Positions 2,881-55,290 of a stretch of 64,000 bases of DNA are shown here, one piece after another; within the stretch, counting starts at the first letter, position 1, and every line of letters starts with the position of its first letter. A program made the position numbers and the translations under genes. This DNA is from Diphasiastrum complanatum (Eukaryota > Streptophyta > Lycopodiopsida > Lycopodiales > Lycopodiaceae): NCBI GenBank assembly GCA_029204225.1, contig CM055105.1:51301680-51365679 (forward strand), written 5' to 3'. The notes beneath the pieces are model-generated. The model was not told the origin of the DNA, made no database searches, and saw only the letters and a list, made by a program, of their open reading frames with translations.

Positions 2881-2938
2881 AGCTTTCATTCATCTATCAA
2901 GAGAGTTGTAAATAGATCAAGCTAAATTTGAGGAGGAG

Positions 2939-3621: not shown

Positions 3622-3760
3622 TGCCTCACTACATGATGTGCACTGGAAAGGATTTAATTATTGGTGAAAGATGTTTCATTAGAAACTATTCTTGGTCACA
3701 AATAGGATATCAAAAGAAAAAGTAGAATCTCCAAACATCAAAACATGCTCCTTCTTTGAG

Positions 3761-6449: not shown

Positions 6450-6482
6450 CTTTGTACTGCTCAAAGAACAAGTCAAAGCAAA

Positions 6483-7534: not shown

Positions 7535-7694
7535 AAGAAGCTCTATCGTGTATATGGTGATAGATCATGTCATCATCTTTAGAGGCTCATTAGTCATCTT
7601 CTAAACCAGAAAATGATTCATTTCTGATGTTAAGATCAGGTCTTAGAATTGTATGGATACATTTATTGTTTCCAAGGCTAGATTTGAGGAGGAG

Positions 7695-10021: not shown

Positions 10022-10033
10022 TGGTATCAGAGC
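10022..10033 (+). promoter_or_regulatory. E3 primer-binding site (tRNA-iMet)
   Basis: TGGTATCAGAGC is complementary to the 3' end of plant initiator methionine tRNA. It directly follows the LTR end CCACA, as expected for a Copia minus-strand primer site. Confidence 0.95.
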
Positions 10034-11650: not shown

Positions 11651-13522
11651 TTGTGGAATTGTATCACAGGTTTTTATTCACATGACATCAATAGGTGGCA
11701 ACCTATTGAAGGAAAAAGGATCCTAAGTGCAACCTTTGTGGCAAGGGAGGATATATTTTCTCCATCCAATGAGAACCAAGGCAAGGGGGCCGAGGTGAAG
11801 GATGGAGCTTCAAGTTCGAAATGCAAATACAAGAAGGACAAGTCCAAGGAAAGGTGTTTCCTTTGTGGAAAGGTGAATGAGGCTTGGAGTCTCATAAGGA
11901 CTTGCAAGATTTGTCTTCAAGAGTCCATCACAACACATGTCAAATCTTTTGAAATTTTTCATTTGGAAGTGCATTGTTTGGTTCAAGATGCAAAGATAGA
12001 TGTCACTTTCATGAAAGTAACTTGGATTTACTTTATGTCCTTGGAAAGTATTTTGCTTGGAACTTTAGATAAGTTCAAACTTATTGTTATGATCCAAGAG
12101 AAATCAATCAAGAATAAGGAGCATCAGTCACAAAATAAAAATAGTTTCATTTATGCTCTCATGTCAACTTATGAAGATCTATTTTGCTTTGAAGGGATTT
12201 TTGTATCTCAAAGGTGGCTTAAGGCAATACTAGCTGAGTGTGATGCCTTCAAGTATAACAAAGCATGTTTTCCTTGTAAGCTTACATTAGTTATGAAGTC
12301 AAGGAAATGGAAATGTCTTCATAATGTAAATTCTTTTAGTTTCAATAAGATCATGAATGATGTGTTCATTCATAAAGATGAAAATTGTAAGTTTTCAATC
12401 TTAAAGGCAAGTTGTAAACCTCTTATGAGAATAAGTGAAGCATCCAAAGTGGACACTGATGTCCATAAGCAAGTAGTTAGCCTTATTGAGATGGAAATAC
12501 CTTTTGATTTCAATACTGAAAAAATCATGCCAAGTTGTGGTGATTTTTGGACTTATGGTTCTAGCATAAGTAATCTTGATAATCATAGGAAGTGCATATT
12601 GAATAATCATACTTGTTGTGATCATTATGAGACATGGAAGTCTCGGATTTCCATCAAAAAGGAGGACCATGAAGAGGATCTTAAGGAGTCATCTCAAGGT
12701 TCAAAAGTGCCAAGGATTGAGGAGGAGAATCCTTCTCAAGGTTCAAGTGTGCCAAGGATTGAGGAGGAGAGACCTTCTCAAATTGTGATTCCAAAAATAA
12801 ACTCAAGAAATATGGTTGAATCCATGTGGCTCACATTTCAAGGGAAAGAGGAGCATATCTCATGTGGTATACATCTCATACTTACTTCTCTTATGTCATT
12901 TGATAAATCAATTTGCTTTAGTGAGATCGTTGCATCTCAAAATTGGAGTAAAGCCATAGTAGTTGAGTATGAAGTCTCCCTTGAGAACGTAGATGATGTT
13001 CTTAAAAGGTTAAAATTGATTTTAAATCAATTAGAAAGCAAATGGCTATTTCATCAAATGTATGCTCTTGAGTCATGTAAGAGCAAAAGTGATTTGTTCA
13101 CTCATAGTTTGAAAATTTGTATTGAGGCAAATTGTAAACTCTTTATGAAAGTAAGTGAATCATCTTCTAAAGACACTTATCTCCATAATGAAGTATTTAG
13201 CCTCATTGGATTTGAGCTTAGCATGGTAAACAAGCATGAAGATGTAATGCAAACACTTTGTTATTATAGCATGCATAGTCTTGCCAATTTGGATGAGCTA
13301 GATCGTGGTAGCATGATGTTAGATCTTTGTGATCCTAATAAATTAAGAAGAAGACTTTATTTTCTCATGGAGGTGCATGCACATGAAGAAGGAGCAAGCC
13401 TCAATGTCAAGCATCTACGTGAAATTTCGAAGGGATCAATTTTGGAGGTGCTCAGATGGTGCAAAGCTCTCAAGCTCATCAAAGATATCAACATCAAAGA
13501 AGCACTATCATGGATATGGTGA
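11651..13522 (+). CDS. E3 623-codon frame: half zinc knuckle plus duplicated unknown module
   Basis: The frame has no intact Copia enzyme. The listed start is a TTG, so the true start is unknown; a spliced or internal ATG is possible. Residues ~58-85 are rich in K and D and contain the first half of a Gag zinc knuckle (CFLCGK) with the His/Cys half lost. Two copies of a module follow, near residues 255-320 ('RISEASKVDTDVHKQVVSLI') and 490-550 ('KVSESSSKDTYLHNEVFSLI'). Between them are two short direct repeats of 'VPRIEEE'. The same module, at DNA level too, occurs in E2 and in C2. A frame this long with no stop suggests recent coding function, but no known domain is recognisable. Confidence 0.55.
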   Translation: MWNCITGFYSHDINRWQPIEGKRILSATFVAREDIFSPSNENQGKGAEVKDGASSSKCKYKKDKSKERCFLCGKVNEAWSLIRTCKICLQESITTHVKSFEIFHLEVHCLVQDAKIDVTFMKVTWIYFMSLESILLGTLDKFKLIVMIQEKSIKNKEHQSQNKNSFIYALMSTYEDLFCFEGIFVSQRWLKAILAECDAFKYNKACFPCKLTLVMKSRKWKCLHNVNSFSFNKIMNDVFIHKDENCKFSILKASCKPLMRISEASKVDTDVHKQVVSLIEMEIPFDFNTEKIMPSCGDFWTYGSSISNLDNHRKCILNNHTCCDHYETWKSRISIKKEDHEEDLKESSQGSKVPRIEEENPSQGSSVPRIEEERPSQIVIPKINSRNMVESMWLTFQGKEEHISCGIHLILTSLMSFDKSICFSEIVASQNWSKAIVVEYEVSLENVDDVLKRLKLILNQLESKWLFHQMYALESCKSKSDLFTHSLKICIEANCKLFMKVSESSSKDTYLHNEVFSLIGFELSMVNKHEDVMQTLCYYSMHSLANLDELDRGSMMLDLCDPNKLRRRLYFLMEVHAHEEGASLNVKHLREISKGSILEVLRWCKALKLIKDINIKEALSWIW

Positions 13523-13645
13523 TTTCAGATCATCATCAAGCTCATTGGCTGATCTTCACACCTTTTGAACCAGCAAAGACCAATTCAGCCCATGGAGTCA
13601 AGTTCAAGATCATCATGTTTTCCATCAAGCTAGATTTTTGAGGAG

Positions 13646-14477
13646 TGTGAAAAATACAAAAATAAGTTTGGTAGAGGCCAAAAAACTTGTATATAGATAA
13701 ACACACATGTGTGGAGCCAATTCCCACGTGTGAAAATAGTGTACTTTTCATGTACCATAATCATATAGGTTGTACATATGATTTAATTCAAGTTCTAGTG
13801 GCTAAAAAGGCCAAAAACTAGTTTTCTAGACATATGACACATGGCATCAATCTATTGATTGCATGAGCCACATCCTTTGGTTAGGTGTCATATCACATGT
13901 ATAGAGGACGACTCACACGTGTGGAATAAGCTGAAGTAGGAAAATTTTGACTTCTAGAAGATTTCCAAGTAGATCTCCATATAGAAGAAAAATGGACCAA
14001 AAGTGCTCAAAATAGAAGGTTTTGTCCAAATGTCAGTTTTGCATGATGAATCATCATATGACAAAGCACCTTCACACATGTGGGATCAGAGGGATGATCA
14101 GTACCACGAGCTCTCACTTATTGTATATATAGAACCACATTTGGCCATAATCATTGTGAGACACCAATCTTGGTTTTGGAAGCAATTTTGAGTGATTATC
14201 TCCATTTGTCTACATTTGTTTTGATTGTTTTGAGGTTCTATCAATGTGTACTTGATTTTCAGGTTGGAGTCCATATTCAGACAGTGTTTCACACGTGTGA
14301 AACCAGAAAGTACACTTACCTTCAATTAATGATTGTTCTTGTTAGGATTTTGTGTCTAGAATTGATCTAGATTGATCTTAATTTGAAGTAGATTGATAGA
14401 TCAAGTAATCTGACAACCAATTTCTCTTGAGGATCAGATTAGGATCCACTCTTGGTCCTTTCTGTACTTTTTCCACA
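13646..14477 (+). repeat. E3 3' LTR
   Basis: 832 bp, TGTGAAAAATAC...TTTTTCCACA, preceded by TTTTTGAGGAG. It contains four CACA(C/T)GTGTG-type palindromes (near 13708, 13724, 13915 and 14292) and a TATATATAG box at 14124, giving a strong promoter-like layout. Confidence 0.9.
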
Positions 14478-16015
14478 CATGAGTGTCAGCCAAAAATTAG
14501 ATTGAATTTAGTGGACGCACTAGAATGTTTCTGTAGCAAACAAGCTTCACTTGCTCATGCACTTTGCAATACAATTATCAAACTTGGTACTTGAGTTAGC
14601 CTCTTGATTCTTTGTCTTGCAATTCACGAAGCAACCAAAACATCTTTCATCTTTAGGTGAATGTTATAACAAACATTAGAAAATATGATCAAATTGGAAT
14701 TTATTAAGATCATTTCCAAATGATGATGTTTTGTATTTACCTATTAGAATGTTAATGTTAGCTTGCTGATAATGTAAGTCATGGAATCGAGTAGACTATC
14801 CCAGTACCAAGTTCAATTGTAGAATATAGCATGACATGGATAGGTCTAACTTGTTTGAGAAATACATCTAGTATTCAAAAGATAATAATCAATAGAGATT
14901 TACTAAAAAATAAGTAGATCCAATAGTTAGTAGAGGACGTTTACTCACTAACATTATAATTTTATTGTAGATCTTTTTCCATCCTCAAACATCGGTCACA
15001 AAGAAAATTTTACTTATAAATCTTCCATAACAATTTAGGTTACAATGTGTCACTAAATGATGTGCATTGCAAAGAATTTCAAAATTGTTAAAAGATTTTT
15101 TGGTTAGAAACTATTCTTGCTCACAAATATGATATCTAAAAGAAACGTATAATCTCAAAATATAAAATCCAATTGCATCTTTTAGATTTTCTATCCACAT
15201 CATATACCCTAATTGTGTTATGCCTTACTACATTATGTACATAGATATATAGAAGTATTATTGTTGTAGTCACTACCACTTCCTTGTATGTGATGAATGC
15301 ACAAAATAATGTCTTAAACATGCTACCCAACCAAAAATGTCATACTCAATGTAGGACAAAGTAGCCAGAATTACATTCAATTCACACGAGTTGCCAGAAT
15401 GTTTTTCTAACAAACAAGCTTACTTGCTCATGTACTTAGCTATAGAATTTTCAAACTTGGTACTTGAGGAAGCCTCTTGATTCTTTGTCTTTCAATTCAC
15501 AAAGCAACGGACACATCATTTTTGCTTATGTATATGTATGTTATAAGAAAAGTTATTTTTTTATTTATTACAATGTGTTAACTTGATGATAATGTAATAA
15601 GGCATGGAATCGAGTAGACTACCCCAATACCAAGTACAATTGCAAATATAGTATGACATGGATAGGTCTTGCTTGTTTGAGAACTATATGAATATTGCAT
15701 GACATACATAGGTCGAGCTTGTTTGAGAAATATATTCACCATCTCGTAGAGAATAATCAAGAACAATGTTAAAAAAAGTAGTTCCAATACTTAGTAGAAA
15801 ATTTATGCTCACTAACATCAAAATTGTAGTGTGGATTTTTTGTCCATCCTCAAATTTCATTCGCAAAAAAAATTTGACTTATTAATCTTGCATGGCAATT
15901 TATGTCATAATTCCTTACTACGATGTGCATTGCAAAGGATCTAAATATTGGTGAAAGATGTTTTGTTAGAAACTATTCTTAGTCACGAATATGATATTGA
16001 AAGAGAAAGTAGAAT

Positions 16016-17090
16016 GTCATATGCATCGGCATTATTTTTTCCACAACGATAATGAAGATCATAATGAAATGTTTACTAAAACTACATCCAACAAACTATC
16101 AATCCCTAAGTGTCTTCTGAAAATGCAATTATTGAAGAGACCGTTGATTAAGATGAAGGTCGAAAGAGACATGTCTAAAGCAATGGTGCCATTTTTTCAA
16201 AGCATAGACAAGAGCAAGCAATTTTGTTTCATGCATAGAATAGCATGTTTCATAAAAACATAAATGATACCCCAACAGGGTGACAAAGAATAGCACCAAC
16301 ACCAACAACACTAGTGTCAATCTCAACAAATTACTTATGATCAAAATTTGATAGAGCTAACACAGCACATTATTGAATGACTCTTGATAAATAATTGTTC
16401 AATGAAAAATAGATTTCTTTTATAACAACACATGTCAAGAATAGACTTATGTAAATGTGTAGCAAGATTGAGAAACATTTGAACCTCATGGACGTGGTGG
16501 CAGCAAATTTGGAACGTTTCACACATATAAATCGAGCAAAAACCAAAAAACCAAAAAATTGATAAGCAATTCCTAGATCTAAAAGACATTTGTTTTTAGA
16601 AACAAAAAGAAGACTTGGATTGTTTGGCATAAAGCAAGTGTGATCATAAGAGTTCAAAAACCAAGGATAAATGAAGAATATGAGACTAACAGTTGTGACT
16701 AAAAACTAGAATTTATCAAAATAAAGTAGCATGCAAACATCAATGAGAAATCAAAAGATTTTACTCATGATGTTTTGGAAAGTAGCATGCCCAATAAAAA
16801 TGTCAAAAGCTAAAACACAAAATTCTTATAACCAAAAATGTACAAAAATCAATTTTCTACATGTCACCTAGGTGAATACAAATCTAATGATAACCTCTAC
16901 AAAGATCAACTTTAGAAAGATAGAAGCTGTATCCAGGTGGTCAAATAGGTCATAAATGTCGGGAATAGGACATTTATTTCAAATAGTAAGACGACTAAGA
17001 GCACCATAATCATTACAAAGACGATTTGTACTGTCTTTTTTATCCACAAGCAAAACAAGAGTGTGATATAGACTTTGACTAGGCTGGGCA
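16016..17090 (-). pseudogene. Ty3/Gypsy pol remnant (RT and RNase H scraps)
   Basis: On the minus strand, 17060-16860 reads like the start of a Gypsy RT: 'LLVDKKDSTNRLCNDYGALSRLT' followed by 'NKCPIPDIYDLFDHLD', the usual VRKKDGSWRMCVDYRALN / PIPRIDDLLDQL region. At 16250-16130 is an RNase H piece, 'ETKLLALVYALKKW'. The catalytic RT core (YxDD) between them is deleted, with about 600 bp of unassignable sequence in its place. Many stops and frameshifts make it an old relic. Confidence 0.7.
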
Positions 17091-31544: not shown

Positions 31545-32936
31545 TTATAATCCTTCAAACTTGATAACCCATCCACCCCTCGAGGACTCATGTGGATGTT
31601 GATGCAAAAAGCTTTGGATCTGGTCCTCGATGGTGATCAGTTTTTGAAACAAAGGCCTGGGCCTTGATGTGGATGGACCTTTTTCTATGGCATGGATGTC
31701 TGGTATATCTTGAATTTTTGGCCCATCCAAACCTGTATCCATGTCTCTCTGATCTTGATGCTGAGGCGAGAACTGTGGCATCACATGACTGGAATCTGAG
31801 GGCCGACTTCAATACTTGAGAGACTATCGTTTTGTAATCTTTGATGATTGCTTTTGCCTTTGCCAACTCAATGGTTGCCATACGTTTGAGTTTATCAAAT
31901 TTTTCTATAAACCCTACCAATGAAGTGTGGTAGGTTTAACTTTCCTGAACATGTATCTTATTTTGTGCTCGGCCAAATCCAAATGACCAGCCAACAGTAA
32001 CACATGTTGTTTGGAATCTTGAAAATCTTTGTCCACTTGATCTTGTGCAGTTGTCAATGCATCCTAAAGAGTTCCCACATAGCCTTCAAGAGCATCAGCT
32101 GTTTGTTGGGCTTTCTTCAGTTCAGCTTCAGATTTTGCCTCATGTTGCTTGGCAATCTTAAGCTCGCGATTCAACTGAATAACCTTCCGGCTTATCAATG
32201 TGTTTCGGTACCCAGCTCTGATATATGCTTACTCATGTCTATCTTTTCATCGATCATGGTTTGGATCACCTGTGCAAGGTTTGAGACTAAAACTAATGTG
32301 TCACCAAAATTCACTTTGGTTGTAGCAGCAACGATAGAAGCAACACGTGGGGATTGTGCTAGTTTGGCTCTGGTGTCTGGCCAGTTTTTCTTTTTCAGAA
32401 ACATCTTCTCCTTCAAATCCTTCAGGCAGATGGAACATCGTGTGCGACCCTGATGGTGTCTGGTGCTACGTCAATTTGATCTAGCTGATTGATCTGAAAT
32501 GAGTCATAAAAAATAGTAGAATTGTCATGGAACTATTCGAATCCTTTTTCAAAGGATTGGGGATCAAAGGGTCCTAGACTCTTGGGCATCTCAAAAACTT
32601 CATCTGGGCCCAACGGGTTGGAATCATCGAACATATCCATAGATGTTTGGGTATTTGGTAAAATGACTCGGATTTGTAGGGGTGAGGCGGCTTGGGCAGC
32701 TGTGATTGGAATGGTAGATCCAATGGTCACAGACTAACTCTATGAGGAAGAGGAGGCAAGGGATGCATCAGTGGGTTGGGGGATGGGTAGTTCACTGTGA
32801 ATTGTAGCAGGGTATGGAAGCACAGCTGAAGATGTCTGCCTAGTGCAGTATCAGAATGCGGAAGGCGAGTCAGGAATGACGACCTTGCTGCACACATGAT
32901 GATGACTATGAGAATTGGATGCCTGGTGTGAGGACT
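31545..32936 (-). pseudogene. U, C-terminal part: coiled-coil protein remnant of unknown family
   Basis: The minus strand holds successive coding-like segments separated by frameshifts and stops. 32730-32533 is proline/acid-rich. 32416-32198 is basic then helical. 32200-31930 is a heptad-like coiled coil ('LNRELKIAKQHEAKSEAELK'), and 31920-31590 is another helical stretch ('IEKFDKLKRMATIELAKAKA'). Its right edge at 32936 is the insertion point of C1, and the reading continues at 49105. N-terminal globular plus coiled-coil layout resembles a retroelement ORF1/Gag-like protein only in general; no family is recognised. Confidence 0.5.
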
Positions 32937-33531
32937 TGTTAAAAATTCACAATTCTAGCTTGACTAGTTTTAGTCATATGACTTGTAAATAGTTAGATGG
33001 TCATGATGTGGCTTGTCACACGTGCCAAATAGCATAGGATTCCATTCATAAGGATGTTCTCAAGTAGACCTAAGTGTTAGAACCTTTGGAATGAGTCCAA
33101 ATTATGCTTAGATACAAGGGAGAAAAAATAGGAGCTATTTTTGGTAATTTTTGCATTGTTGAGGGATCTCCAAGATTCCAACCCTAACTTGGTAGGGATG
33201 AAAGATCCACCAAAATTAGCATTAGGGATAGGTTTAGGGCTACTCATACCTGCCCAAAATCGTGATGGATCATGTATATATAGGTGATGATATCTCACCA
33301 AAATCAATCAAGCAATTTTATGATTTTTCTCTCATAATGGTGCAATTGCTCTCTATGTTCATAATTGTTTGAGTACTTGTGATTACTAATGATTATAGGA
33401 TTGAATGTAGGTCTGGTGTACAGTACTCAGACTGTGGGAGGCCGTACTTTCACACGTGTGAAGCCTTCTTCAAGGATTTGGGCCATTTAGTGAGGTTCAA
33501 GCATAGATTTTTGATGGATTTTGATGGTTCA
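32937..33531 (+). repeat. C1 5' LTR
   Basis: 595 bp. It contains a TATATATAGG box near 33275 and CACACGTGTG near 33457, after GGCCGTACTTT, an arrangement also seen in the E1 and E2 LTRs. It carries a short extra TTTTGATGG copy near its end relative to the 3' LTR. Confidence 0.88.
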
Positions 33532-33773: not shown

Positions 33774-34397
33774 TGTGAAAGATTCAACTAGTTTCATCAC
33801 ATTTTGCAATATTTCCATATTTGGCATATTGAGGCCAAAACTTGTTTTAGACTTAGAGGTTGACTTTTCAAAGTTCATTAGTCTAAATTTCATTTGAATA
33901 AACACTTTTTGAAAGTGTGGGAAAGATAGAATGCGAGTTTGAGTAGATTCAATTTGAATAAGTTGAGTACATTGAATCTAGACCCAAAATTGGTAGGGTT
34001 AGCATTTTGGTGGGAAAGCCAAGTGGCCAAATAAGGTTTGGACCTGCTATAAAAGGATGTAACTCATGGAGAGAGTCATATTCTCTCTTCTCTATCTCAT
34101 TTCATGCTTATACATGGTTCTCTTGGGTTCTACTATCCATTGGTGCACTATCTTGGTGATTGCTTGCAATTCAATTCTATGTGTAGAATGATCTATATTT
34201 GCTATTTTTGGATCCACACGTGTGAAATACAGTACATAATCATTTCATTCAAGTTTGATCAAGTTCTATTAGTGTTTGCATCTCAAATTGTGTGTAGATG
34301 CTGATTTTTCTACATTGGTGAAATTGGTAGTGTATTTCTCTTTCTAACCAAAGATCATTCAAGTAGATTGGATCTTAAGGATCTGAAATCTTTCACA
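33774..34397 (+). repeat. C2 5' LTR with promoter signals
   Basis: 624 bp. TATAAAA at 34048-34054 is followed ~160 bp later by CACACGTGTGAAAT. Only scattered differences and one 29-bp indel (near 43809) separate it from the 3' LTR, so the insertion is recent. Confidence 0.9.
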
Positions 34398-34409
34398 TGG
34401 TATCAGAGC
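34398..34409 (+). promoter_or_regulatory. C2 primer-binding site (tRNA-iMet)
   Basis: TGGTATCAGAGC directly after the LTR end TTTCACA. The noncoding leader continues from 34410 to about 34720 and again from about 38400 to 38699, split by the foreign block. Confidence 0.95.
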
Positions 34410-34729
34410 TTGTGTTTCAGGTTATGAAGGAGGATATCAGATCTATCAATGATTTGGTGAAGATATCAAGTCTAGAGCATGCTAGAGAGGATTCTACACC
34501 AAAATTGGATTTTTTGCTTTTGTAGATTGGATCTTTTGTAGATCAAAACACTAAATAGGTCAATATACTTGTTCAATTCCATTTTTTGAATTCACATGCT
34601 GGATTTGGCCGATTTTTGGATCATTGGTTCAGCCTAAGTGGTGGCTTACAGATTGCATATCAAATTTTCAGCATTTGCATGTAGATTTGGAATAGTCAAT
34701 TTTTTGACAAATGCAAGGAGAAGGATGCA

Positions 34730-36520
34730 CCGTGGGATACATTTTCACCAGGAAGCCGATCACCTAACAGGAAGCTCCCTAAGTGGTTTGAGAGATTGTT
34801 GGAGTGCCGCGACATAGATGACTTTCCAGGATCATCTAGCCATGGAGAGCTATGAAGATCAACAGGAGAGAAGACACTACCTAAAAGGTATGAAGCAAAT
34901 TATACTCTCTTATCTAGCATTATTCAACGCAAAGAACCTTCAACTTATGGTGAAGTGAAGGATGATGACATTTGGGTCAAGGCCATGGGAGAGGAGATGG
35001 AGTCAATTGCTAAACATAGCACATGGGACTTAGTAGAGCCACCAGTTGGCAAGAAATCCATTGGTTGCAAATGGGTATACAGGACTAAGTACCATGCAGA
35101 TGGAAGTATAACAAAGCACAAGGCAAGATTGGTGATCAAAGGGTACGCACAAAATAAAGGCATCGACTATGAGAAGACCTTTGCGCCGGTTTGTAAGTGG
35201 AATACTCTACGTCTACTTGTTGCTTTAGCTTCACATTTTGGTTGGCCTTTGCATCAGATGGATGTGAAATCCGCTTTTCTAAATGGTGAGTTAGAAGAAG
35301 AAGTGTTCATGGATCAACCTGAAGGCTTTGTAGCGAAGGGACATGAAAATAAAGTATGTCGCTTGAAGAAAGCACTTTATGGTCTTAAACAAGCACCATG
35401 TGCGTGGTATAGCAGGATTGATGCCTACTTTCGTTCAAAGGGGATGGTGAGAACACATTCTGATCCAAATCTATATGTCTTATGCTTTGATGGTATGGTT
35501 GCTTTGATTGCTCTTTATGTTGATGACTTGATTATTACGGGAAATAATCAAGAGATGATAGACATGATCAAGAAAGACCTCATGGAACAATTCGAGATGA
35601 CAAATCTCAGCCTGATGCATTATTGCCTTGGAGTAGAAGTGTGGCAAAAAGGACATGAATTGGGTTTAACACAGGTGAAGTATGTCAAAGAGTTGCTGCA
35701 GAGGTTTAGGTTGCAGGATTGCAAACCAGTAAACACTCCTATTGAACCAGGTAAAAAGCTTTCTAAGCTTGATGAGTCATAGTCATTTTATGCTACGCTG
35801 TATAGACAGTTAGTAGGGAGCTTGATTTACCTTACCACGACTAGACTAGATATATGCTATGTTGTTGGCATTGTAAGTTAGTTTATGGCAGCACCTACGC
35901 AAATGCATTGGAAGGTAGCTAAACACATTTTGCGTTATGTGAAAGACACTTCAGAGTATGGCTTGATTTACAGGAAACATGATGGTTTACCTGAGTTGTG
36001 TGGCTATGTGGATGCAGATTGGGGAGGTGACTATGATGATCGTAGATCCACCACAGGGTATGTATTCTAGTTTTGTGGTAGTTGCTTTTCTTGGTCTAGT
36101 AAGAAGCAAAGTACAACTGCTCTTTCCACCACAGAAGCAGAGTATAAGGCAATGTGTAGTGCAGCACAAGAAGCTATATGGTTGAGACAAATCTTGGAAG
36201 AAATTGGCATGAAGTAGAAAACTCCCACGACTTTACATAGCGACAATCAGAGTGGCATTCAGCTAGCAAAAAATCCAGTGTTCCATGCGGGAACTAAACA
36301 CATCGAGATTCAGTATCACTTTATACGTGAGAGGTTGCTGAGTCGTGAAATTCATGTTGTTTATTGTAGCACAAAGGAACAACTAGCTGATATTTTCACT
36401 AAGCCACTTACTGGAGAAAAGTTTGATAAGTTTAGATCAAAGCTTTCTGTACTTAAAGTTTGTTGACTTTAAAGCTATGTATATGACTGTATAAAAATTA
36501 GACTCTACTTTAAGGGAGAG
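34730..36520 (+). pseudogene. H: Copia pol 3' half (linker, RT, RNase H) with stops
   Basis: After a linker with stops, a 275-residue frame from 34955 gives a good Copia RT: 'GCKWVYRTKYHADGS', 'YEKTFAPV', 'HQMDVKSAFLNGELEEEV', '[17 protein letters not shown]', and 'LYVDDLIITGN' with the YVDD catalytic pair. TAG stops at 35780 and 35879, and two more at ~36070 and 36216, interrupt RNase H. RNase H still shows 'ALSTTEAEYKAM', 'SDNQSGIQLAKNP' and 'DIFTKPL', ending at 36466. TTTAAGGGAGAG near 36510 is its purine tract, but no 3' LTR follows. Closely related to D and F. Gag, protease and integrase are absent. Confidence 0.9.
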
Positions 36521-36573
36521 AAAATTTGTATATGAAAAAAACAAAAACACAAGTAAAAGTAATTAATCGAAGA

Positions 36574-38379
36574 TTACCTCTTCCAAAGTCCATCTTGTAA
36601 TGCAAGCCAATTAAAAAAGTGTTTGGCATTGCATACGGTATACCAGCCACAGTGGACGAAATCAACCTGTTGGGAGGACTGAAGAATCCAAATTTTAATA
36701 TTATGAGATATCGGATCAACGCGCAGGATATAAGAATAAAATCTACAACACAAACAAGCGTCCATCGAATCGATATCAAAAAATTATTGATTGAATATCG
36801 GATCCACGCACACACTAAGAATATAAACCAATTAGTAACTACAAGGGCGCGTCGAACTGATGTTGAAAAATTTATACCTCTGCATCAACCATTTTCAGCT
36901 TCGAATATGCTTTTGCATTTGGTACTAGAAAGAGTTCCAGTATTTTCTGGATATGGGTCCTGGCAATTTTGTGTGTGTATGTAATAGAGTTCATCTTTAA
37001 ACAAACTGAATTACACACACCCTCATCATTGATGTACAAGGACAACACATGTAAGTTTCGATGATCACTAAAATCAGAAAACAATAAATTTATGAGAATC
37101 GATGTTGAATCAAAATTCATATGAAAAATTCAATATAATAAAATTTGAAAAGAAGACACTTACTTTCTTATGTATGGCAGCACGAGAATTGGAGTCCCCA
37201 GTCTGACGTATTGGAGCATATCATCATGCAGACTTTTGAAATCAGAGAAATCAAATGCAGCCATGAATTGAAGGGAAAACAATGCAACATCTATAAACAA
37301 TGGGGTTTGGAAATACTCCATCCAGTACTGAATTGCCCCACCTCCTACTTTGTCCCCTAGCATTTTATCTCTACTTTCTAATTCACTTGCATCTAATCTA
37401 GAAAGGGGGAGACCAGCATTGGTCTTCGGCATCCTAAAACTATATCGAGGACCTAAACCATTAGGATACATGTTTAACAATTGATCATATAGTACATATT
37501 GAGGAGTATTTACAAAGGCAAGTGCAGGGGGTGACAAAAGTAATACTGATAAACCACATAAAGAATTGTCATTAAAATTTTTATACTAACAAAATCATCT
37601 AAATTGTTTCCAAGAACAGGAGGAGGGGAACTAATATTTACGGGTTTAGGAGGAGGAGGAGATCTAGGAGGTGGAGATTTATTAGGAGAGGAAGATTTAG
37701 TAGGAGAAGCTAAAGATGGAGTGGTTGGAGAAGAAGGAGACTTAGGAGGAGAATTAGAAGGAGAATGCCTAGAAGAAAGAATAGTATTCAGAGGAGATGG
37801 CTTGGAAAAATCCCTCGCTTTAGATGGATGGTCAAGAGACCTCTTCTTCTTTGAAACACTCTCGTTCTGTATATGAATAACAAGCCGGGTTGGTTGAGGT
37901 TGCTTTTATTTTTTTCTCTTTGAATCTTGTTTTAGAGGAGAGAAGGGAGCAGGTCTAAAGTATTCAGCAAACTTGTCATATGTGTCTCGAAGCCTGAAAA
38001 CAATGTTGAAATCCTTGGGCATGATGGCCACCCTCTTGGCATGGACAACTGCAACAACAATATCTGAAAAAAATTTCACCTAGAAATCCTCATATGCTAT
38101 GTGCAACGCCTCAATTGCCGTTACAGTCCATCTCACATCTACTAATAGACTTCTTGTAATGTGTCTGATGGACCTCTTAATATGAGATTTCGAAATCAGA
38201 AGATTATTTGTCTTCTGAAGCGTCCCAATATCCTTGAGCCAGGGTGGGTCTCTTCTTCTACCCCTTGGCCTAGGAGGAGGTGGTGGTGGACGAGGTGGTG
38301 GTTGTGAATTTTTCTTACTTGCACCTAAAATTGGTATTCCACATGAATGACTCTGTGTTGTCTGCTTGGTCTGTGCCAT
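36574..38379 (-). pseudogene. Histone H3-fold / proline-rich / Ulp1-like peptidase gene, split by introns
   Basis: An ATG at 38379 opens MAQTKQT, matching the H3 start MARTKQT. Next come a proline/arginine tail and an H3 core: 'LKDIGTLQKTNNLLIS' (H3 EIRKYQKSTELLI), 'VRWTVTAIEALHIAYEDF', an in-frame TAG, then 'VHAKRVAIMPKDFNIVFRLR' (H3 [20 protein letters not shown]). A proline/serine-rich segment follows to ~37600. The exon 37537-37160 resembles the start of a Ulp1/C48 domain ('LGDKVGGGAIQYWMEYFQ') and ends at a GTAAGT donor. The next exon (37070-36870) has an LHVLSLYIND block. After an intron, 'QQVDFVHCGWYTVCNAKHFF' has the Gln and Cys of the Ulp1 active site (HCG for DCG). H3 is clear; Ulp1 is likely. 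The stop makes the present copy a probable pseudogene. Some splice junctions are unresolved. Confidence 0.72.
36707..36864. repeat. Cluster of four GATATCGGATCANNGCGC motifs inside an intron
   Basis: GATATCGGATCAACGCGC at 36707-36724; an inverted variant at 36758-36777; AATATCGGATCCACGCAC at 36794-36811; an inverted variant at 36846-36864. They fall in the last intron of the H3/Ulp1 gene. The same motif is clustered at 56925-58361. Short repeats in both orientations near gene ends are typical of transposase binding sites in subterminal regions of CACTA- or hAT-like DNA transposons; that role is inferred. Confidence 0.7.
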
Positions 38380-38699
38380 TAATGTGTAGTAGCAGATCAG
38401 CGTGCGATAATGTTGATCAAAACCCTAATTTTGATTGGATCTCTAGATAGTGAGGTTGCTGGACTTCATTTGAGTGTGTTTCAATTTTAGGAAGTGGCAA
38501 AAGTCATTAGATTGAGGATAGATCATAGGTTGATCAAGATTCCATGATTCTATGTGTTGATTTGCTTGGATAAGTGCTAGAAGAGAATTTGTGAGATAGT
38601 TTCAAATCTTGGTGATTTCTTTTGAAAGCATTTGTTGTTGTTCAAAGGAGTGCTTTGTGCATTGAAACAGGTTGAAAGAGAAGATCAGGTCATTGCTAC

Positions 38700-40298
38700 A
38701 TGGCAACCTCAATTGGAGTCATGTTGGAAGCCAATGATAGGCTTACCTCAAGTAACTATTCATTATGGAAAGTGAGGATGGAGTCACTTCTTGAGATGAA
38801 TGATGTTTTGGATATTGTTGTAGGTTTGGAGGAGAGACCAGCAACACAACAAGATCAATTGAGGTATGACAAGAGGGCCAAGAAGGCTCTACACATAATA
38901 AAGATGAATGTTACCAATGAACTTCTCAAGGAAGTTGGTAAGTGCACATCATCTTTGGAAGCTTGTAATTCATTGAAGAAGCTTTATGAATCCGAGTCTA
39001 CTTCTAGAGTGTTGACTCTAAGAAGGCAAATCTTTTCTTGTTTGCAAAAGAATGAAGAAAGTCCAAGTAGTTTTGTTTTGAGAATGAAAGCATTGAATGA
39101 TGAGTTAGCTTGCATAGATGAAAGCATTAAGGAAGGAGAGCTTATTCAAGTGATTCTTAATGGCTTGTTGGATGCTCGTGCTAACATTGTTCAAAGTATT
39201 GCTATTCAAAAGACTTTGCCAAGTTTGATGGATCTTCAAGAGATCTTGATCAATGAGGAATATAGGCTTCAAGCAAGAGGTGGATCTACATCGACACTTC
39301 AAGAGGATGCTATGTTCACAAAGGGCAAATTCAAGGGCAAAACCAAAAGCAAGTGGTCTAAAGGGCAAGATCAAGTGGATGCTTCTTCAAGTGGCAAAAA
39401 GAAGGATAGATCAAAGCTCAAGTGCTTCTATTGTAGCATCAAAGGACACTTTGCAAGTGAGTGCTACAAGAAGAAGAGAGATCAAGGAGACAAGCAAGGT
39501 AATCTTACTCTTGATGAGGATGGTTTGGATGTGCAAGATGAAAATGATGATGCTTTTGTGATGTCTTCATGTATGCTTGCTAATGATGGAGATCTAGATC
39601 CTTGGTGGATTGATAGTGGAGCAAGTTCACAGATGACCTTTCACAAAGAGTACTTCACTTCTTTGTTGGCATATCGAGATGACAAGAGGGTGATCTACAC
39701 GACCAATGATGGTGAGTGTGCAATCAAAGGGATTGGCACAATTCCTATTTCTCTCTCTACAAATAGGAATGTTCATCTGGAGGATGTCTTGTTTATTCCA
39801 TCTATTACCAAGAATTTGCTTAGTGTGAGTCAAATGCTAAGTAAGGGCCTCAAGGTGGAGTTTGATGGAGATGCTTGTTTGATCAAAAGGAAGGATGTCT
39901 TGATTGGAAAGGGTAAAAGACAAGGGAAGTTGTTCAAACTTGATGCTTGCGTTATTGCTAACCAAGTTGGATGTGTTGCAAGGGAGCAAATTTCCATTCA
40001 AGAGGTTTGGCACAAAAGGATGGGACACCTCAACTTCAAGTCATTGGAGGTAATGGCAAAGAAGAAGGTTGTGATTGGTCTTCCAAGTTCCTTAAGTAAT
40101 GACAAGCATGTTTGTGAGTCTTGTGCTTTGTCTAAGTCATATAGACTACCTTATACTAGATCTATGTCTAGATCTACAAAGCCTTTTCAACTTGTACATT
40201 CGGATATTCATGGATTTACTACAATTAGCAATAGTGGAGCTAAGATGTATGTAACATTCATTGATGATTTTAGTAGATTTTGTTGGTCTATCTACTAA
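38700..40298 (+). CDS. C2 gag, protease and integrase N-terminus
   Basis: 532 codons from an ATG. Gag N-terminus ('RLTSSNYSLWKVRMESLLE') at residues ~14-35, a UBN2-type Gag core to ~200, and a perfect CCHC knuckle (C-F-Y-C-x4-H-x4-C) near 242. Protease WWIDSGASSQ near 303 keeps the catalytic D-S-G. Pre-integrase HHCC ('VWHKRMGHLNFKSL', then C-E-S-C) is near 430-470. The integrase core starts with 'LVHSDIHG' (first catalytic Asp). A frameshift at about 40285 moves the rest into the next frame. Apart from this the coding looks fresh. Confidence 0.9.
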   Translation: MATSIGVMLEANDRLTSSNYSLWKVRMESLLEMNDVLDIVVGLEERPATQQDQLRYDKRAKKALHIIKMNVTNELLKEVGKCTSSLEACNSLKKLYESESTSRVLTLRRQIFSCLQKNEESPSSFVLRMKALNDELACIDESIKEGELIQVILNGLLDARANIVQSIAIQKTLPSLMDLQEILINEEYRLQARGGSTSTLQEDAMFTKGKFKGKTKSKWSKGQDQVDASSSGKKKDRSKLKCFYCSIKGHFASECYKKKRDQGDKQGNLTLDEDGLDVQDENDDAFVMSSCMLANDGDLDPWWIDSGASSQMTFHKEYFTSLLAYRDDKRVIYTTNDGECAIKGIGTIPISLSTNRNVHLEDVLFIPSITKNLLSVSQMLSKGLKVEFDGDACLIKRKDVLIGKGKRQGKLFKLDACVIANQVGCVAREQISIQEVWHKRMGHLNFKSLEVMAKKKVVIGLPSSLSNDKHVCESCALSKSYRLPYTRSMSRSTKPFQLVHSDIHGFTTISNSGAKMYVTFIDDFSRFCWSIY

Positions 40299-41926
40299 AG
40301 ATAAAGGATGAAGTGTATGATGTCTTTGTCAAGTTCAAGAATGCAAGGGAGAACCAATTCTCCACAAAGATCAAGTGCTTGAGAGGTGACAATGGTGGTG
40401 AGTACATATCTAACAAGTTCAAGGCTTTTTGTGATGAGCATGGAATCAAGAGGGAGTATACAACATCAAGGACCCCACAACAAAATGGAGTGGTTGAAAG
40501 GAAGAATAGAACTTTATGTGAAAGTGCTAACGCTATGAGGTTAAGTGCTAATCTTGACAAACCATTTTGGGATCAAGCTTTGTTGTGTGCCAATTTCTTG
40601 TGTAATAGGTGGTCGAGTGCTATTTTGGATGGAAGGACACCTTTTGAGATGCTATTCAAGAGGAGGCCGAGTGTCAACTTTCTAAGAACCTTTGGATGCA
40701 CATGCTATGTCAACATCACTCTTGATGATAGGACCAAGGAGGATCCATCTTCAAGAAGAGGTATTTTTGTTGGATATAGTGAGGTGAGTAAAGCCTACAA
40801 GGTTTACATTCCTTCTACTAACAAAGTGATTGTTGGTAGAGATGTCATTTTTGATGAGGGAAACATTCCAAAGGTGTCTTCAAGCATGATTGATGGTAAA
40901 GTAGATGGTTCTAACATTCTTGATGTTGATGAGAAGGATCCTACTTTGGATGGTGGTGATGATGGACCTTCATCAAGTCAAAAGCCAAGGAGAACATCAA
41001 GAGAAAGACAAGTACCTTCAAGGCTCACATATGATCAAAAGGGTAAGCAAGTACTTTCTGGAAATTATGTTGCTTTCCTAACCTTTTTGGATGAGCCTAC
41101 AAGTGTAGATCAAGCAAGGAAAGAAGAGGAGTGGATCCAAGCAATGGATCTTGAGTATCGATCTCTTATGAAGAATGGAACATCTTTTGGAGGATCTTCT
41201 TGTGTACATGGAGCTATGCAAGTGGATGGATGTTATCTTGCTGTAAAATCAAGTAATGGATCGGGAAAACAAAGTTTGTTCAATGACTTTGATGGTCAAG
41301 TTGAAGATCAAGAGGTTGATCTCAAAGCGCTTCAACTAGTCAAAAGGGAAGTTGGCAATTTGGAGCTAGTCAAGAGCATCAAAGGAGAGGTAATTGGCAA
41401 GGGTGTTATGGATCTGTTTTTGCAGCATATTGAAGACTCAAGTAAGGTCAAAGGAGCAGCAAGGAAGTGCTGTTCAAGTTTACTTTACTTGTTCTATCTC
41501 ATGTTTGAGCAATTTCATGTGAATGTGTGCAAATTGCCAAGATATGGTAAAAGTAGCTACATTGGTGAGCATTGTTTTGATGTTGGATTTGTACAAGCAT
41601 TCTTGGCTGATTTTGCTGATGGAAATGAAGCTATTGGAGGTTCATTATGTCACTCATCCATGGCTAAGTTCTCAAGTGTTGAGCTACTTGGTGCTGCATC
41701 ATTTATGTACTCACCTACTCATGGATTTCCAAGGTTTGATGGTTTCTTGTGGCAAGATGAAGATGGAGGCTCATTCATGGAGTATCATGGTGGATACAAG
41801 GCAACAAAGGACAAAGGAGGAGGAGACATGCAAGCAAAAGTTGATCACTCACATTTATTGTTTGTTTGCTGTATTTTTCCAGAGAGTTCAGAGCTGGAAG
41901 CATGTTGGAAGTATTTTTTTTTTTAA
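40280..41926 (+). CDS. C2 integrase core and C-terminus fused to non-RT sequence
   Basis: The first ~290 codons complete the integrase: 'LRGDNGGEYISNKF' (second Asp), 'PQQNGVVERKNRTLCE' (Glu), the 'TFGCTCYVNITL' block and 'VIVGRDVIFDEG', then the proline/serine linker and 'EWIQAMDLEYRSLM', where RT should begin. Instead the same open frame runs 250 more codons into sequence unlike any RT. This includes 'LKALQLVKREVGNLELVKSI', a Cys-rich patch and 'SPTHGFPRFDGFLWQDEDGG', the first copy of a threefold repeat. The element therefore needs RT from elsewhere. The inserted part could come from a host transcript or another element; I do not recognise it. Confidence 0.8.
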   Translation: MLVYLLKIKDEVYDVFVKFKNARENQFSTKIKCLRGDNGGEYISNKFKAFCDEHGIKREYTTSRTPQQNGVVERKNRTLCESANAMRLSANLDKPFWDQALLCANFLCNRWSSAILDGRTPFEMLFKRRPSVNFLRTFGCTCYVNITLDDRTKEDPSSRRGIFVGYSEVSKAYKVYIPSTNKVIVGRDVIFDEGNIPKVSSSMIDGKVDGSNILDVDEKDPTLDGGDDGPSSSQKPRRTSRERQVPSRLTYDQKGKQVLSGNYVAFLTFLDEPTSVDQARKEEEWIQAMDLEYRSLMKNGTSFGGSSCVHGAMQVDGCYLAVKSSNGSGKQSLFNDFDGQVEDQEVDLKALQLVKREVGNLELVKSIKGEVIGKGVMDLFLQHIEDSSKVKGAARKCCSSLLYLFYLMFEQFHVNVCKLPRYGKSSYIGEHCFDVGFVQAFLADFADGNEAIGGSLCHSSMAKFSSVELLGAASFMYSPTHGFPRFDGFLWQDEDGGSFMEYHGGYKATKDKGGGDMQAKVDHSHLLFVCCIFPESSELEACWKYFFF

Positions 41927-42535
41927 TTCATGGTCATTTTCTTGTGTCAAGTAGATCTTGAAGATGGACTAGTGCAAACTACTTGGTTTATGGAGTCAAG
42001 TGGTGCTGGATTTGCATCATTTATATACTCACCTACTCATGGATTTCCAAGGTTTGATGGTTTCTTGTGGCAAGATGAAGATGGAGGCTCATTCATGGAG
42101 TATCATGGTGGATACAAGGCAACAAAGGACAAAGGAGGAGGAGACATGCAAGCAAAAAGTTGATCACTCACATTTATTGTTTGTTTGCTGTATTTTTCCA
42201 GAGAGTTCAGAGCTGGAAGCATGTTGGAAGTATTTTTTTTTTTAATTCATGGTCATTTTCTTGTGTCAAGTAGACCTTGAAGATGGACTAGTGCAAACTA
42301 CTTGGTTTATGGAGTCATGTGGTGTTGGATTTGCATCATTTATGTACTCACCTACTCATGGATTTCCAAGGTTTGATGGTTTCTTGTGGCAAGATGAAGA
42401 TGGAGGCTCATTCATGGAGTATCATGGTGGATACAAGGCAACAAAGGACAAAGGAGGAGGAGACATGCAAGCAAAAGTTGATCACTCACATTTATTGTTT
42501 GTTTGCTGTATTTTTCCAGAGAGTTCAGAGTTGAA
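41690..42535 (+). repeat. Three tandem copies of a ~318-bp unit replacing C2's RT
   Basis: Copies lie at ~41690-41925 (partial), 41926-42243 and 42244-42535; ATTCATGGTCATTTTC starts copies 2 and 3 (offset 318). All carry the coding stretch 'SPTHGFPRFDGFLWQDEDGG' and an oligo-T run. The first copies are nearly identical, so the expansion is recent. Each copy ends in a stop or changes frame, so the product ends in copy 1. Confidence 0.92.
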
Positions 42536-42539
42536 AGCA

Positions 42540-42785
42540 TGGTGGAATCATTTCAATTACATTCTATTTGATTCTTCATGTTCTAGTCACATTTTTACAT
42601 GTAAAATTGATGTAAGAAATAGTGAAGCATCCCAAGTGGACACTATTCTCTATATCAATTATGGTTGTTTCTATTTTGAGCATTACATGATCATTGAAAG
42701 GCAATCTATTCTTAGGAAGAAGATCATTCTTATGATGGATCAAAGTTCTATGGGCAAAAACTATGCTAGGAGCATTGGAAGCTAG
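42540..42785 (+). pseudogene. C2: copy of the E2/E3 unknown module
   Basis: Near 42610-42660, AGTGAAGCATCC and AAGTGGACACT, translating 'SEASQVDT', are nearly identical to part of the E3 frame at 12435-12465 ('SEASKVDT'). The flanking residues also resemble E3's second module ('SLKICIEANCKL' against 'IFTCKIDVRN'). So the block that replaced RT shares sequence with the non-autonomous elements in the satellite. Confidence 0.55.
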
Positions 42786-42796
42786 GAAAGCGAGTT

Positions 42797-43357
42797 TTGA
42801 GGTACATCATTGGAACTCGAGATTTTGGCATATTGTATGAGGGATCATCACCTAATCTTTTTGGATTTTCAGATTCGGACTATGCTGGAGATGTAATGGA
42901 TAGGAAATCCATTAGTGCTTATTGTATTTTCATAGGTGATGGAGCTATATCATGGATGTCAAAGAAACAAGCCACTATCTCACAATCATCTAGTGAGGCC
43001 GAGTACAAAGCTCTTACATATTGCACAAAGGAGATGGTATGGATCAAAAGGATGATCAAGGATCTTCACTTGCTGGATTTTTCAGAGAGCCCAATCATCT
43101 TTTGTGACAATCAATCAGCCCAAAGAATGGCATCCAGTCCTATCTTTCATGCTAGGAACAAGCATATTGAGATACAATATCATTTTGTGAGGGAGCGAGT
43201 CATTGCAAAGGAGGTGGAGCTTCAACATGTGTCTTCAAGGGAATGTGTAGCTGATATCTTCACCAAAGCATTGGGAAAAGACTTGTTCATGAAGCATAGA
43301 ACTTCACTTGGAGTGTTATCAAAGTCTATGCTAAAACTAGCTGAAGAGGGAGTGTGA
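42797..43357 (+). CDS. C2 RNase H
   Basis: The frame of 186 codons covers the Copia RNase H: 'RYIIGTRDFGILYEGSSPNL', 'FSDSDYAGDVMDRKS', 'SSSEAEYKALTYCTKEMVWI', 'CDNQSAQRMASSPIFHARNK' and 'VADIFTKALGK'. The key Asp/Glu residues look intact. It overlaps the purine tract and ends just inside the 3' LTR, as usual. There is no RT in front of it, so it would be made only as part of a broken polyprotein. Confidence 0.88.
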   Translation: MRYIIGTRDFGILYEGSSPNLFGFSDSDYAGDVMDRKSISAYCIFIGDGAISWMSKKQATISQSSSEAEYKALTYCTKEMVWIKRMIKDLHLLDFSESPIIFCDNQSAQRMASSPIFHARNKHIEIQYHFVRERVIAKEVELQHVSSRECVADIFTKALGKDLFMKHRTSLGVLSKSMLKLAEEGV

Positions 43358-44002
43358 AAGATTCAACTAGTTTCATCACATTTTGCAATATTTCCATATT
43401 TGGCATATTGAGGCCAAAACTTGTTTTAGACTTAGAGATTGACTTTTCAAAGTTCATTAGTCTAAATTTCATTTGAATAAACACTTTTTGAAAGTGTGAG
43501 AAAGATAGAATGCGAGTTTGAGTAGATTCAACTTGAATAAGTTGGGTACATTGAATCTAGACCCAAAATTGGTAGGGTTAGCATTTTGGTGGGAAAGCCA
43601 AGTGGCCAAATAGGGTTTGGACCTGTTATAAAAAGATGTAACTCGTGGAGAGAGTCATCTTCTCTCTTCTCTATCTCATTTCATGCTTATACATGGTTCT
43701 CTTGGGTTCTACTATCCATTGGTGCACTATCTTGATGATTGCTTGCAATTCTATGTGTAGAATGATCTATATTTGCTATTTTTGAATCCACACGTGTGAA
43801 ATACAGTAGCTTGCTAGTTTTGTATGGACAACAACAGTACATGATTATTTCATTCAAGTTTGATCAAGTTCTATTAGTGTTTGCATCTCAAATTGTGTGT
43901 AGATGCTGATTTTTCTACATTGGTGAAATTGGTAGTGTATTTCTCTTTCTAACCAAAGATCATTCAAGTAGATTGGATCTTAAGGATCTGAAATCTTTCA
44001 TA
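43353..44002 (+). repeat. C2 3' LTR
   Basis: 650 bp, preceded by GAAGAGGGAG and followed by the GTGAT duplication. Includes TATAAAAAG near 43628 and CACACGTGTG near 43790; ends TTTCATA instead of TTTCACA. Confidence 0.9.
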
Positions 44003-48505: not shown

Positions 48506-48519
48506 ATAGTGAGGAGGAG

Positions 48520-49104
48520 TGTTAAAAATTCACAATTCTAGCTTGACTAGTTTTGGTCATATGACTTGTAAATAGTTAGATGGTCATGATGTGGCTTGTC
48601 ACACGTGCCAAATAGCATAGGATTCCATTCATAAGGATGTTCTCAAGTAGACCTAAGTGTTAGAACCTTTGGAATGAGTCCAAATTATGCTTAGATACAA
48701 GGGAGAAAAAATAGGAGCTATTTTTGGTAATTTTTGCATTGTTGAGGGATTTCCAAGATTCCAACCCTAACTTGGTAGGGATGAAAGATCCACCAAAATT
48801 AGCATTAGGGATAGGTTTAGGGATACTCATACCTGCCCAAAAAAGTGATGGATCATGTATATATAGGTGATGATATCTCACCAAAATCAATCAAGCAATT
48901 TCATGATTTTTATCTCATAATGGTGCAATTGCTCTCTATGTTCATAATTGTTTGAGTACTTGTGATTACTAATGATTATAGGATTGAATGTAGGTCTGGT
49001 GTACAGTACTCAGACTGTGGGAGGCTGTACTTTCACACGTGTGAAGCCTTCTTCAAGGATTTGGGCCATTTAGTGAGGTTCAAGCATAGATTTTTGATGG
49101 TTCA
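48520..49104 (+). repeat. C1 3' LTR
   Basis: 585 bp, TGTTAAAAATTC...GGTTCA, with TATATATAGG near 48858 and CACACGTGTG near 49038. ACTTG follows at 49105-49109. Confidence 0.9.
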
Positions 49105-53371: not shown

Positions 53372-53672
53372 TGTTGAATTTCACACATGTAGACTGTCCA
53401 CTACATGTACTTGTGATCTCCTAAGGTGTGTAGATGCACCAAGCTCAAGACTAGATTGAGATTCAAAATCTATCTTTGAATCTATGGCAAAAACACACTA
53501 CTACATGCATTCAATCACTTCCAACTCTCACTCACACGTGTGGGAAGTATTCTAAAAATAATCTAAGTAAAAACAAGCTGCTCTCCTTGGGTAGAGAGAG
53601 AAAAAACATCATGAGCTCTCGGGTAGAGAGAGAAAGCTAGAAATCCAATAACTCACAAAATCCATGAAATCA
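53372..53672 (-). repeat. G 5' LTR, truncated
   Basis: Starts TGTTGAATTTCAC beside the primer site, matches the 3' LTR, and stops abruptly at ~53672 in transposase-like coding sequence. CACACGTGTG near 53534. Confidence 0.82.
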
Positions 53673-55290
53673 CAATTAATCTTCCGCATCCATATCGGGT
53701 AAGATTAGCTAGAAATTTTTATAATGACGGAATGTTCAAAGTAGTTGGCCAACCACTTCATATAACTGGCTTATACAAATCTAAATATGGTGAGCTCAAT
53801 TACAACGATTGCAATAGTATTTTCCTTGATATTGAAAATGTTCCAAAATATATTATTCGATTCTATAAACTAAATGAACATCAAGTAAATGGAAAGATTA
53901 TTATTGTAATAAAATTGGATGAATCTGAAATCATCAAGGGTCAGAAGTTGGAACGTGTGAGTGTCACTTTGATGAACAAAATTTCAAATACAGATGATCA
54001 AACGTTTGGTGTTCAATCAAAAAATGACATATGGTGGTTGGCGGCATTCCAGTTATACATTTCAAATTTCATTTAGAATATCTATATTAACAATTCATAC
54101 CTTGCCAGTTTTTATTGACATGTCATGCATTACTTGTTTTTATTGACATGTCATGCATTACTTTTTCTCTACAGGTCTTGAAAGAGGACCATAAAATACT
54201 ATCATGGATATTTTCAAGAACAAATTATGGCAAGATTATAAAGAGACATTTGGAAGGTGCAAAATTTACAGTCGAAAACCATGGAAGTTTTCAAATTCAA
54301 TGGCACCTTGCAAGGGATTTGAGAGCATTAAAATGTGTGTATAATGTCTCTCATGGGACAACATCAAAACATCCATGTCTTTATTGCATGAAGGATTGCT
54401 ACAATATGAATTTGGGACGATCAACAAACACTGGCCCAACACGAGAAACTGAAGATCCAAATATGAAAAGTGTTCTACCAATTCCATTAAAATATGTTCA
54501 CATATGCACGTTCCATGCTGAGGTTCGTATTATTGAAAAACTAGTTTACCTGCATATTCTACTAGCATGGAATCATAAACCGGAGTCAGTGGCTAAAGCA
54601 GCAATTAGGAGGTTGGAAATAATTCTGTCAAATGCAGGACTACATAAAATGAATGTCACGATTGAAAAGACAGACTTTCCGGTTAAAAGGAAACGTTCCT
54701 AATAAGCAATCAATTGGAGGTGCTAAAGCAAGAAGATTCTTATCCAATCACACATGCAAAGAATCAAGTGTTAGATACAAAATATGGAGAGAAATTGTTC
54801 AAGACACACGAATACTAGAAGGAAGTAATCGAGTGGAAAAGAGACAAGTCTGGACCAATTTAGACAAACTCATAGGTGTTATCAAAAACGAAAATCTATC
54901 ATCATTGCAAAATCATTGCACCACATTTGTAAAATCTGTACATGATTGTTGGAGAAAAGACAACGTTACTCATTATATCATTATTTGATAATTTTCTCAT
55001 TCAGGCTTATATTTTTTTCTACTGATGTAGCTAATCAAAACTTTTGTTTGCAGCACATCCTTCTTCAACATGCAAATTATTTTTCAAAGGAATATGGGAG
55101 CTTAAGTATCTGGTCATCACAAGGCATGGAAAAATCTCATTGGCAATCAAGGGGAGTATTTCATAGAGCAACAAATCATGGAGGACACAATTCAAAAAAT
55201 AAATATTTAGCTCAACTTTTTCAGTGGTTTTACAGAAGAGCACAATTTAGATATCAAGCTAAAAACTTGCCAAGTATTACAATATTTTGA
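53673..55290 (+). pseudogene. DDE-transposase-like gene of a DNA transposon, 5'-truncated, with introns
   Basis: Exon 1 (53675 to ~54060) begins mid-protein ('LPHPYRVRLARNFYNDGMFK') and ends 'DIWWLAAFQ'. Exon 2 (from 54179, after ...CTACAG) continues 'VLKEDHKILSWIFSRTNYGK', 'WHLARDLRALKCVYNVSHGT' with a likely catalytic Asp, a zinc pair in 'KHPCLYCMKD', then 'CTFHAEVRIIEKLVYLHILL'. A frameshift near 54680 leads to 'RFLSNHTCKESSVRYKIW'. Exon 3 (from 55052, after TTTGCAG) reads 'YGSLSIWSSQGMEKSHWQSR' with a likely catalytic Glu. The layout (Asp, CxxC, His, then E in a xEKSH block) resembles plant/animal DDE transposases. I cannot assign the superfamily. Donor sites are imperfect and the start is missing. 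Confidence 0.6.
54102..54160 (+). repeat. ~30-bp tandem duplication in the transposase intron
   Basis: TTTTTATTGACATGTCATGC followed by ATTACT occurs twice back to back shortly before the acceptor CTACAG. A local slippage event without coding effect. Confidence 0.85.

Follow-up and report, generated by a model that had tools for sequence, protein, structure and literature searches.

A 64,000-nt stretch of Diphasiastrum complanatum DNA (the window) contains a minus-strand reading frame that resembles histone H3 at its start and, further downstream in the same direction, a Ulp1-type peptidase. This raises the question of whether the two parts were once joined in a single protein and what such a protein would be doing in a transposon. 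Our evidence base is one dead copy of the gene. The analysis indicates that an H3-like domain was probably fused to a Ulp1-like region and that the copy, now dead, lies antisense within a copia retrotransposon. The positions of the features are given in Table 1.

Table 1. Features of the broken gene and of the retrotransposons around it, with positions in the window
Feature	Position	Strand	Basis or detail
H3-like domain, MAQTKQT amino terminus, diverged Pro/Arg-rich tail	37987..38379	minus	Pfam PF00125 and PDB histone H3
In-frame TAG within the histone core	38080..38082	minus	sequence and translation
In-frame TAA behind the KRKK stretch (lesion, or true end of the histone gene)	37906..37908	minus	
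Pro/Ser/Lys-rich linker in the H3 frame, 109 codons, no stop, no Met	37579..37905	minus	
Change of open frame (frame shift, or possibly a short intron)	37510..37585	minus	
Ulp1-like region, first part, to donor AA/GTAAGTG	37164..37585	minus	open frame
Predicted exon 2; presumed catalytic His at 37049-37051	36878..37067	minus	openness and splice signals
Predicted exon 3 with SSQQVDFVHCGWY; presumed Cys at 36649-36651	36578..36678	minus	block score
Fragment C: copia reverse transcriptase and RNaseH-like end, another lineage	34856..36466	plus	RVT_2 E=6.5e-78
Copia element B, LTRs 33774-34397 and 43353-44002, TSD GTGAT, gene antisense inside	33774..44002	plus	
Element B gag, protease region, integrase, first bit of RT	38676..41176	plus	Pfam; tblastx to element A
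Element B RNaseH-like frame	42770-43354		
Element A LTR pieces	32930-33517 and 48514-49100		9 mismatches in 587 aligned positions

The histone H3-like domain

The minus-strand frame starts at an ATG at position 38379, reads MAQTKQT first and a Pro/Arg-rich tail next, and then holds a complete H3 core that extends to 37987 and has HAKRVAIMPKDFNIVFRLR as its terminus. With this part as the query, the Pfam search returned PF00125 (Histone) at 52.4 bits against a cut-off of 26.4 (E=7.7e-14), and the PDB search returned histone H3 (E=4.4e-15) in an alignment that starts at the first Met. These values bear out the preliminary description of the locus, which had reported a minus-strand ATG frame with MAQTKQT and an H3 core. 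The core aligned gap-free with H3.2, with 34 of 84 residues identical, and its local score against H3 was 157, compared to 41 for the best of 200 shuffles. By sequence, the homology of the N-terminal part to histone H3 is firm and far above chance. In the PDB alignment, the tip MAQTKQT retains Lys4 and the remainder of the tail is unlike H3; a conserved tail with modifiable lysines is not found. Therefore, the domain is named H3-like and not canonical H3. A single-sequence structure model of the histone part was uninformative (pLDDT 46.9).

An origin of the core from CENH3 was also considered. Arabidopsis CENH3 has the residues RWT, ED, FSD, KDF, and RL in common with the core (by eye) and is identical to it at 36 of 85 positions. 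Unlike in CENH3, loop 1 of the H3-like domain has the length found in canonical H3, and MAQTKQT and IMPKD are canonical-like. The scores showed no preference between the two (154 against CENH3, compared to 157 against H3).

The divergence of the core was compared with neutral drift by a simulation in which an ordinary H3 core drifts to the observed identity. Indels are outside this model, and the core has none against H3.2. The stop counts alone were unremarkable (P=0.12 and 0.25; 300 runs each), and the number of conservative changes alone was not unusual (P 0.21 to 0.33). The similarity score alone gave P values of 0.0075 to 0.015, and the score together with at most one stop was reached by 0.5 to 0.75% of 400 neutral runs under each of five mutation models. 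Because this combination of score and few stops is rare in the neutral runs, the sequence suggests that most of the divergence arose while the protein was still being made. In addition, 17 of 31 DNA-contact and H3-H3′ positions were kept, compared to 17 of 53 at other sites. The one-sided P value for both lists of positions together was 0.035; taken singly, the lists gave P values of 0.17 and 0.15.

The Ulp1-like region and its probable link to the histone part

The first part of the Ulp1-like region, up to a strong donor site, has no stop in 140 codons, compared to 9.4 expected from shuffles, and predicted exon 2 has none compared to 4.2 expected (P=0.006). For exon 3, which is short, openness is not significant and gives no verdict (P=0.19), and a second frame is likewise open. 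Two introns of 96 and 199 nt, positioned by eye, join exons 1 to 3 with canonical GT..AG signals, and these are found where splice sites had been proposed earlier, near 37160 and 36870.

Several features of this region are suggestive of a peptidase. First, in SSQQVDFVHCGWY of exon 3, Gln occupies Cys-6 and Gly occupies Cys+1, a QQ-x5-CG block whose score was equalled by only 2 of 2,000 shuffles. Second, the presumed His-Cys distance is 67, compared to 66 in Ulp1 and 70 in SENP1. Third, a three-block score was equalled by 1 of 1,000 shuffles, although its best placement on the sequence bypasses the His presumed to be catalytic. Asn is found at the presumed His+20, and the references have the catalytic Asp at His+17. 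At E≤10, the region matched neither a Pfam family nor a PDB chain. In an hmmsearch with a two-sequence Ulp1/SENP1 profile, the query ranked 5th of 501 sequences (itself and 500 shuffles), and hhalign against the same profile gave a probability of 0.23%. Since no family profile was matched significantly, the region is termed Ulp1-like and is not filed as C48. For the Ulp1/C48 region proposed earlier, the Q-x5-C-G block and the His-Cys spacing are suggestive, and the Pfam, PDB, and profile searches were negative.

These negative searches, and the rank and hhalign probability obtained with the profile, would fit an alternative in which the C-terminal region is some other, unrecognized domain and not Ulp1/C48, so that the gene encoded an H3-like protein with an unknown extension. 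However, the block scores and the spacing argue against this, and weak profile scores are to be expected because the ULPs of transposons are reported to be only distantly related to those of hosts (PMC6117577). We consider an unrecognized domain unlikely, and from the motif and spacing the C-terminal region is likely to be a C48 peptidase.

The H3-like part is followed by the Pro/Ser/Lys-rich linker. The linker contains no stop compared to 5.4 expected (P=0.003; 1,000 dinucleotide shuffles), and the H3-like part and linker together contain 2 compared to 13.4 expected, with none of 1,000 shuffles as low. Immediately behind the KRKK stretch there is a TAA that could be the genuine end of the histone gene, and the frame changes ahead of the Ulp1-like region. 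Both features would be accounted for by two adjacent genes or captured fragments, an H3-like gene with a KRKK tail that stops at this TAA and a separate Ulp1-like gene; fungal hAT elements are reported to hold a separate H3-like gene beside other ORFs (PMC3538342). However, a separate downstream gene does not explain why the linker is open for 109 codons in the H3 frame, and the linker has no Met with which a second gene could start. Therefore, one fused gene in which the TAA is a lesion is favored, and two genes seem rather improbable. The joining of the H3-like part to the downstream region is, as far as the sequence goes, moderately supported. We read the frame change at 37510-37585 as a further lesion. 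In-frame joins across a short intron at this place are possible by eye, yet the stretch is open and coding-like. The preliminary description, which gave a continuation in the same direction through a proline-rich linker, mentioned neither the TAA nor the frame change nor the truncation behind exon 3.

The copy is dead. An in-frame TAG is present in the H3 core at 38080-38082, as had been described, and the earlier verdict of "probably dead" was right but understated, as there are also the TAA, the frame change, and the loss of the 3′ end; the gene ends after exon 3, where copia sequence interrupts it. Our favored explanation, held tentatively as a whole, is a dead, 3′-truncated gene for a single protein with an H3-like fold, a Pro/Ser/Lys linker, and a Ulp1/C48-like C-terminal region, which had probably served a mobile element as an accessory gene.

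The copia retrotransposon around the gene

The gene now lies antisense within a chimeric Ty1/copia retrotransposon, element B, that is missing most of its own RT. Element B is nested within element A and has GTGAT on both flanks, and its LTRs differ by 14 mismatches in 619 aligned positions. Transitions make up 13 of these 14 mismatches, compared to 4 of the 9 between the element A LTR pieces; the bias in element B is as decay of methylated cytosines would give. The sequence TGGTATCAGAGC at 34398 in element B is what we take to be the usual copia primer-binding site. It is followed in order by fragment C, the antisense gene with its truncation behind exon 3, and gag. Fragment C, the RNaseH end of which was recognized by its tblastx similarity to the corresponding ends in A and B, lies directly downstream of the broken gene, and a PPT-like purine tract at 36512-36520 is found between the two. 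The gene is antisense to both copia pieces, upstream of the gag of element B and beyond the PPT-like tract of fragment C. The place of the missing RT in element B is occupied by 319-bp tandem repeats. No Pfam match was found in the segment 41183-42770, and the repeats, at 41688-42553, have outer copies that are at least 97% alike. Element B thus contains a second foreign segment, in the place of most of its RT, and could not replicate unaided.

Short-word blastn of the flanking pieces revealed no boundary of the inserted block. The gene and fragment C are jointly flanked by an 18-nt direct pair (34537-34554 and 38411-38428, 89% alike), which could be a chance occurrence or a trace of the entry of the block into element B.

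The preliminary description had pointed to Ulp1-type domains in Mutator-like and CACTA transposons of plants. Across 17 scanned frames (including 13 of the 26 listed frames of at least 140 codons), Pfam detected no family of transposases, neither Mutator transposase nor VANC among them, and the gene is not bracketed by any of the nine short inverted pairs found in 34396-38680. Within this scope, membership in either class is not supported. The host is a Ty1/copia retrotransposon with the gene antisense in it, and "transposon-like" is correct only in the sense that the gene sits inside a retrotransposon.

An element of this kind might also have picked up, by chance, an ordinary host gene fragment or H3 pseudogene that had no role in transposition. 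Capture of host genes by plant LTR elements is reported (PMC7264820), and the broken gene is present as a single copy in the window, has retained its introns, and is in antisense orientation. However, the H3 core differs widely from ordinary H3, with the 34 of 84 identities noted above, yet it is more conservative than neutral drift would leave it. We also know of no host H3-Ulp1 gene, and we give chance capture little credence. It is still more doubtful that the gene was a resident antisense accessory ORF of the fragment C lineage, behind its pol as in Retand-type elements. In favor of this, the gene lies directly behind the RNaseH end of fragment C and antisense to it, and antisense ORFs are reported from the interval between pol and the 3′ LTR, some of them encoding chromatin or kinetochore domains (PMC7264820, PMC11963269). 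Against it, the PPT-like tract would place the gene outside the internal region of fragment C, no LTR of fragment C was seen, and Retand is Ty3/gypsy (PMC11963269) and not copia. Under the favored explanation, a mobile element probably had the gene as an accessory before it came to its present place.

Rfam and tRNA scans of the window gave no matches. Other parts of the window contain further repeats and frames. Related repeat copies are densely clustered at positions 1-16019, where numerous direct repeats overlap (lengths of 80-1230 bases, identities of 73-96%). At 53627-54699, the plus strand has two long frames, of 149 and 203 codons, without a Pfam match above the cut-off. A frame at 62048-62620 matches Retrotrans_gag (E=1.5e-05) and, more weakly, a Ty3 capsid, and looks like a Ty3/gypsy-like piece amid the copia elements.

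Precedents and a possible role against silencing

Mobile elements with Ulp1-like proteases in plants and with H3-like histones in fungi are already known (PMC13317346, PMC3538342). In plants, Ulp1 domains are reported to recur as cargo both of MULEs, where they occur in either orientation, and of CACTAs (PMC2528002), and in some MULEs Ulp1 is reported to be joined to the anti-silencing gene VANC (PMC13317346). The KAONASHI and KIU genes have in common with the present gene a Ulp1-like domain in a plant mobile element, in either orientation to the element's own genes, and, for some of them, its joining to a second domain with a presumed action on chromatin (PMC13317346, PMC2528002, PMC6117577). 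Unlike in these, the partner here is an H3-like histone and the element is Ty1/copia; the 17 scanned frames gave no transposase of MULE or CACTA type. In fungi, hAT elements are reported to carry H3-like genes, with 784 copies in one species (PMC6710886), and the H3L of Pyrenophora fully matches neither H3 nor CenH3 (PMC3538342). The likeness is that of a diverged H3-like gene in a mobile element with a full match to neither; the fungal genes differ in their host and in residing in a DNA transposon, and the available portions of the two reports mention no Ulp1 partner (PMC3538342, PMC6710886). Together, VANC-Ulp1 of Mutator-like elements and the H3-like genes of fungal hAT elements provide a precedent for the favored explanation.

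Plant LTR retrotransposons are reported to contain antisense ORFs relatively often, with no function assigned to them (PMC7264820, PMC11963269). Those of Grande, RIRE2, Retand, and PvRetro13 resemble the present gene in being antisense to gag-pol, behind a pol fragment, and in having a predicted nuclear domain. No histone or Ulp1 is mentioned for them in the available portions of these sources (PMC7264820, PMC11963269), with zero occurrences of either word in PMC11963269, and unlike those ORFs the gene here is one copy in a copia element. An H3-Ulp1 fusion was not among the matches listed from the open-licence literature (most subscription journals lie outside it), and as far as these searches show the combination is unreported within the literature covered. 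Searches of viral contigs with the H3-like and Ulp1-like parts, of prokaryote genomes and phages with the H3-like part, and of plasmids with the Ulp1-like part returned no relative; these collections are without plants, and the results say little.

The sequence shows the histone homology, the continuous frame of H3 and linker, the splice signals, the lesions, and the antisense position in a copia element, and we infer the protease identity, one fused product, and an activity and purpose for the gene. As possible roles of the H3 part, the preliminary description had put forward targeting to particular chromatin, mimicry of a nucleosome, and action on SUMO-marked chromatin proteins, all of them conjectures. 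In the working that we find most likely, the histone domain would pair with H4 and enter or dock on nucleosomes, where the tethered protease would free silencing factors of SUMO or of a similar modifier. The resulting desilencing would let the mobile element escape silencing, a role like that of an anti-silencing factor. The more general proposal, that plant mobile elements evolved a fusion of an H3 variant with a Ulp1-type protease that is embedded in nucleosomes and strips SUMO from the silencing machinery at the element, is speculative and on present evidence improbable. If it were true, the nucleosome-embedded fusion would be a self-encoded, chromatin-resident anti-silencing enzyme. The joining of both parts in one protein, if true, suggests a use in which an enzyme that cleaves a modifier is brought into nucleosomes. 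The histone would then be the targeting module of a genomic parasite, which makes for a concrete and testable anti-silencing hypothesis, and the existence of intact relatives would mean that a mobile element had at one time encoded a chromatin-targeted enzyme of its own. Finally, in the more general proposal, the retained ARTK-like tip could also act as bait for H3K4 readers, including the SUMO ligase SIZ1, the PHD finger of which is reported to bind H3K4me3 (PMC6954211).
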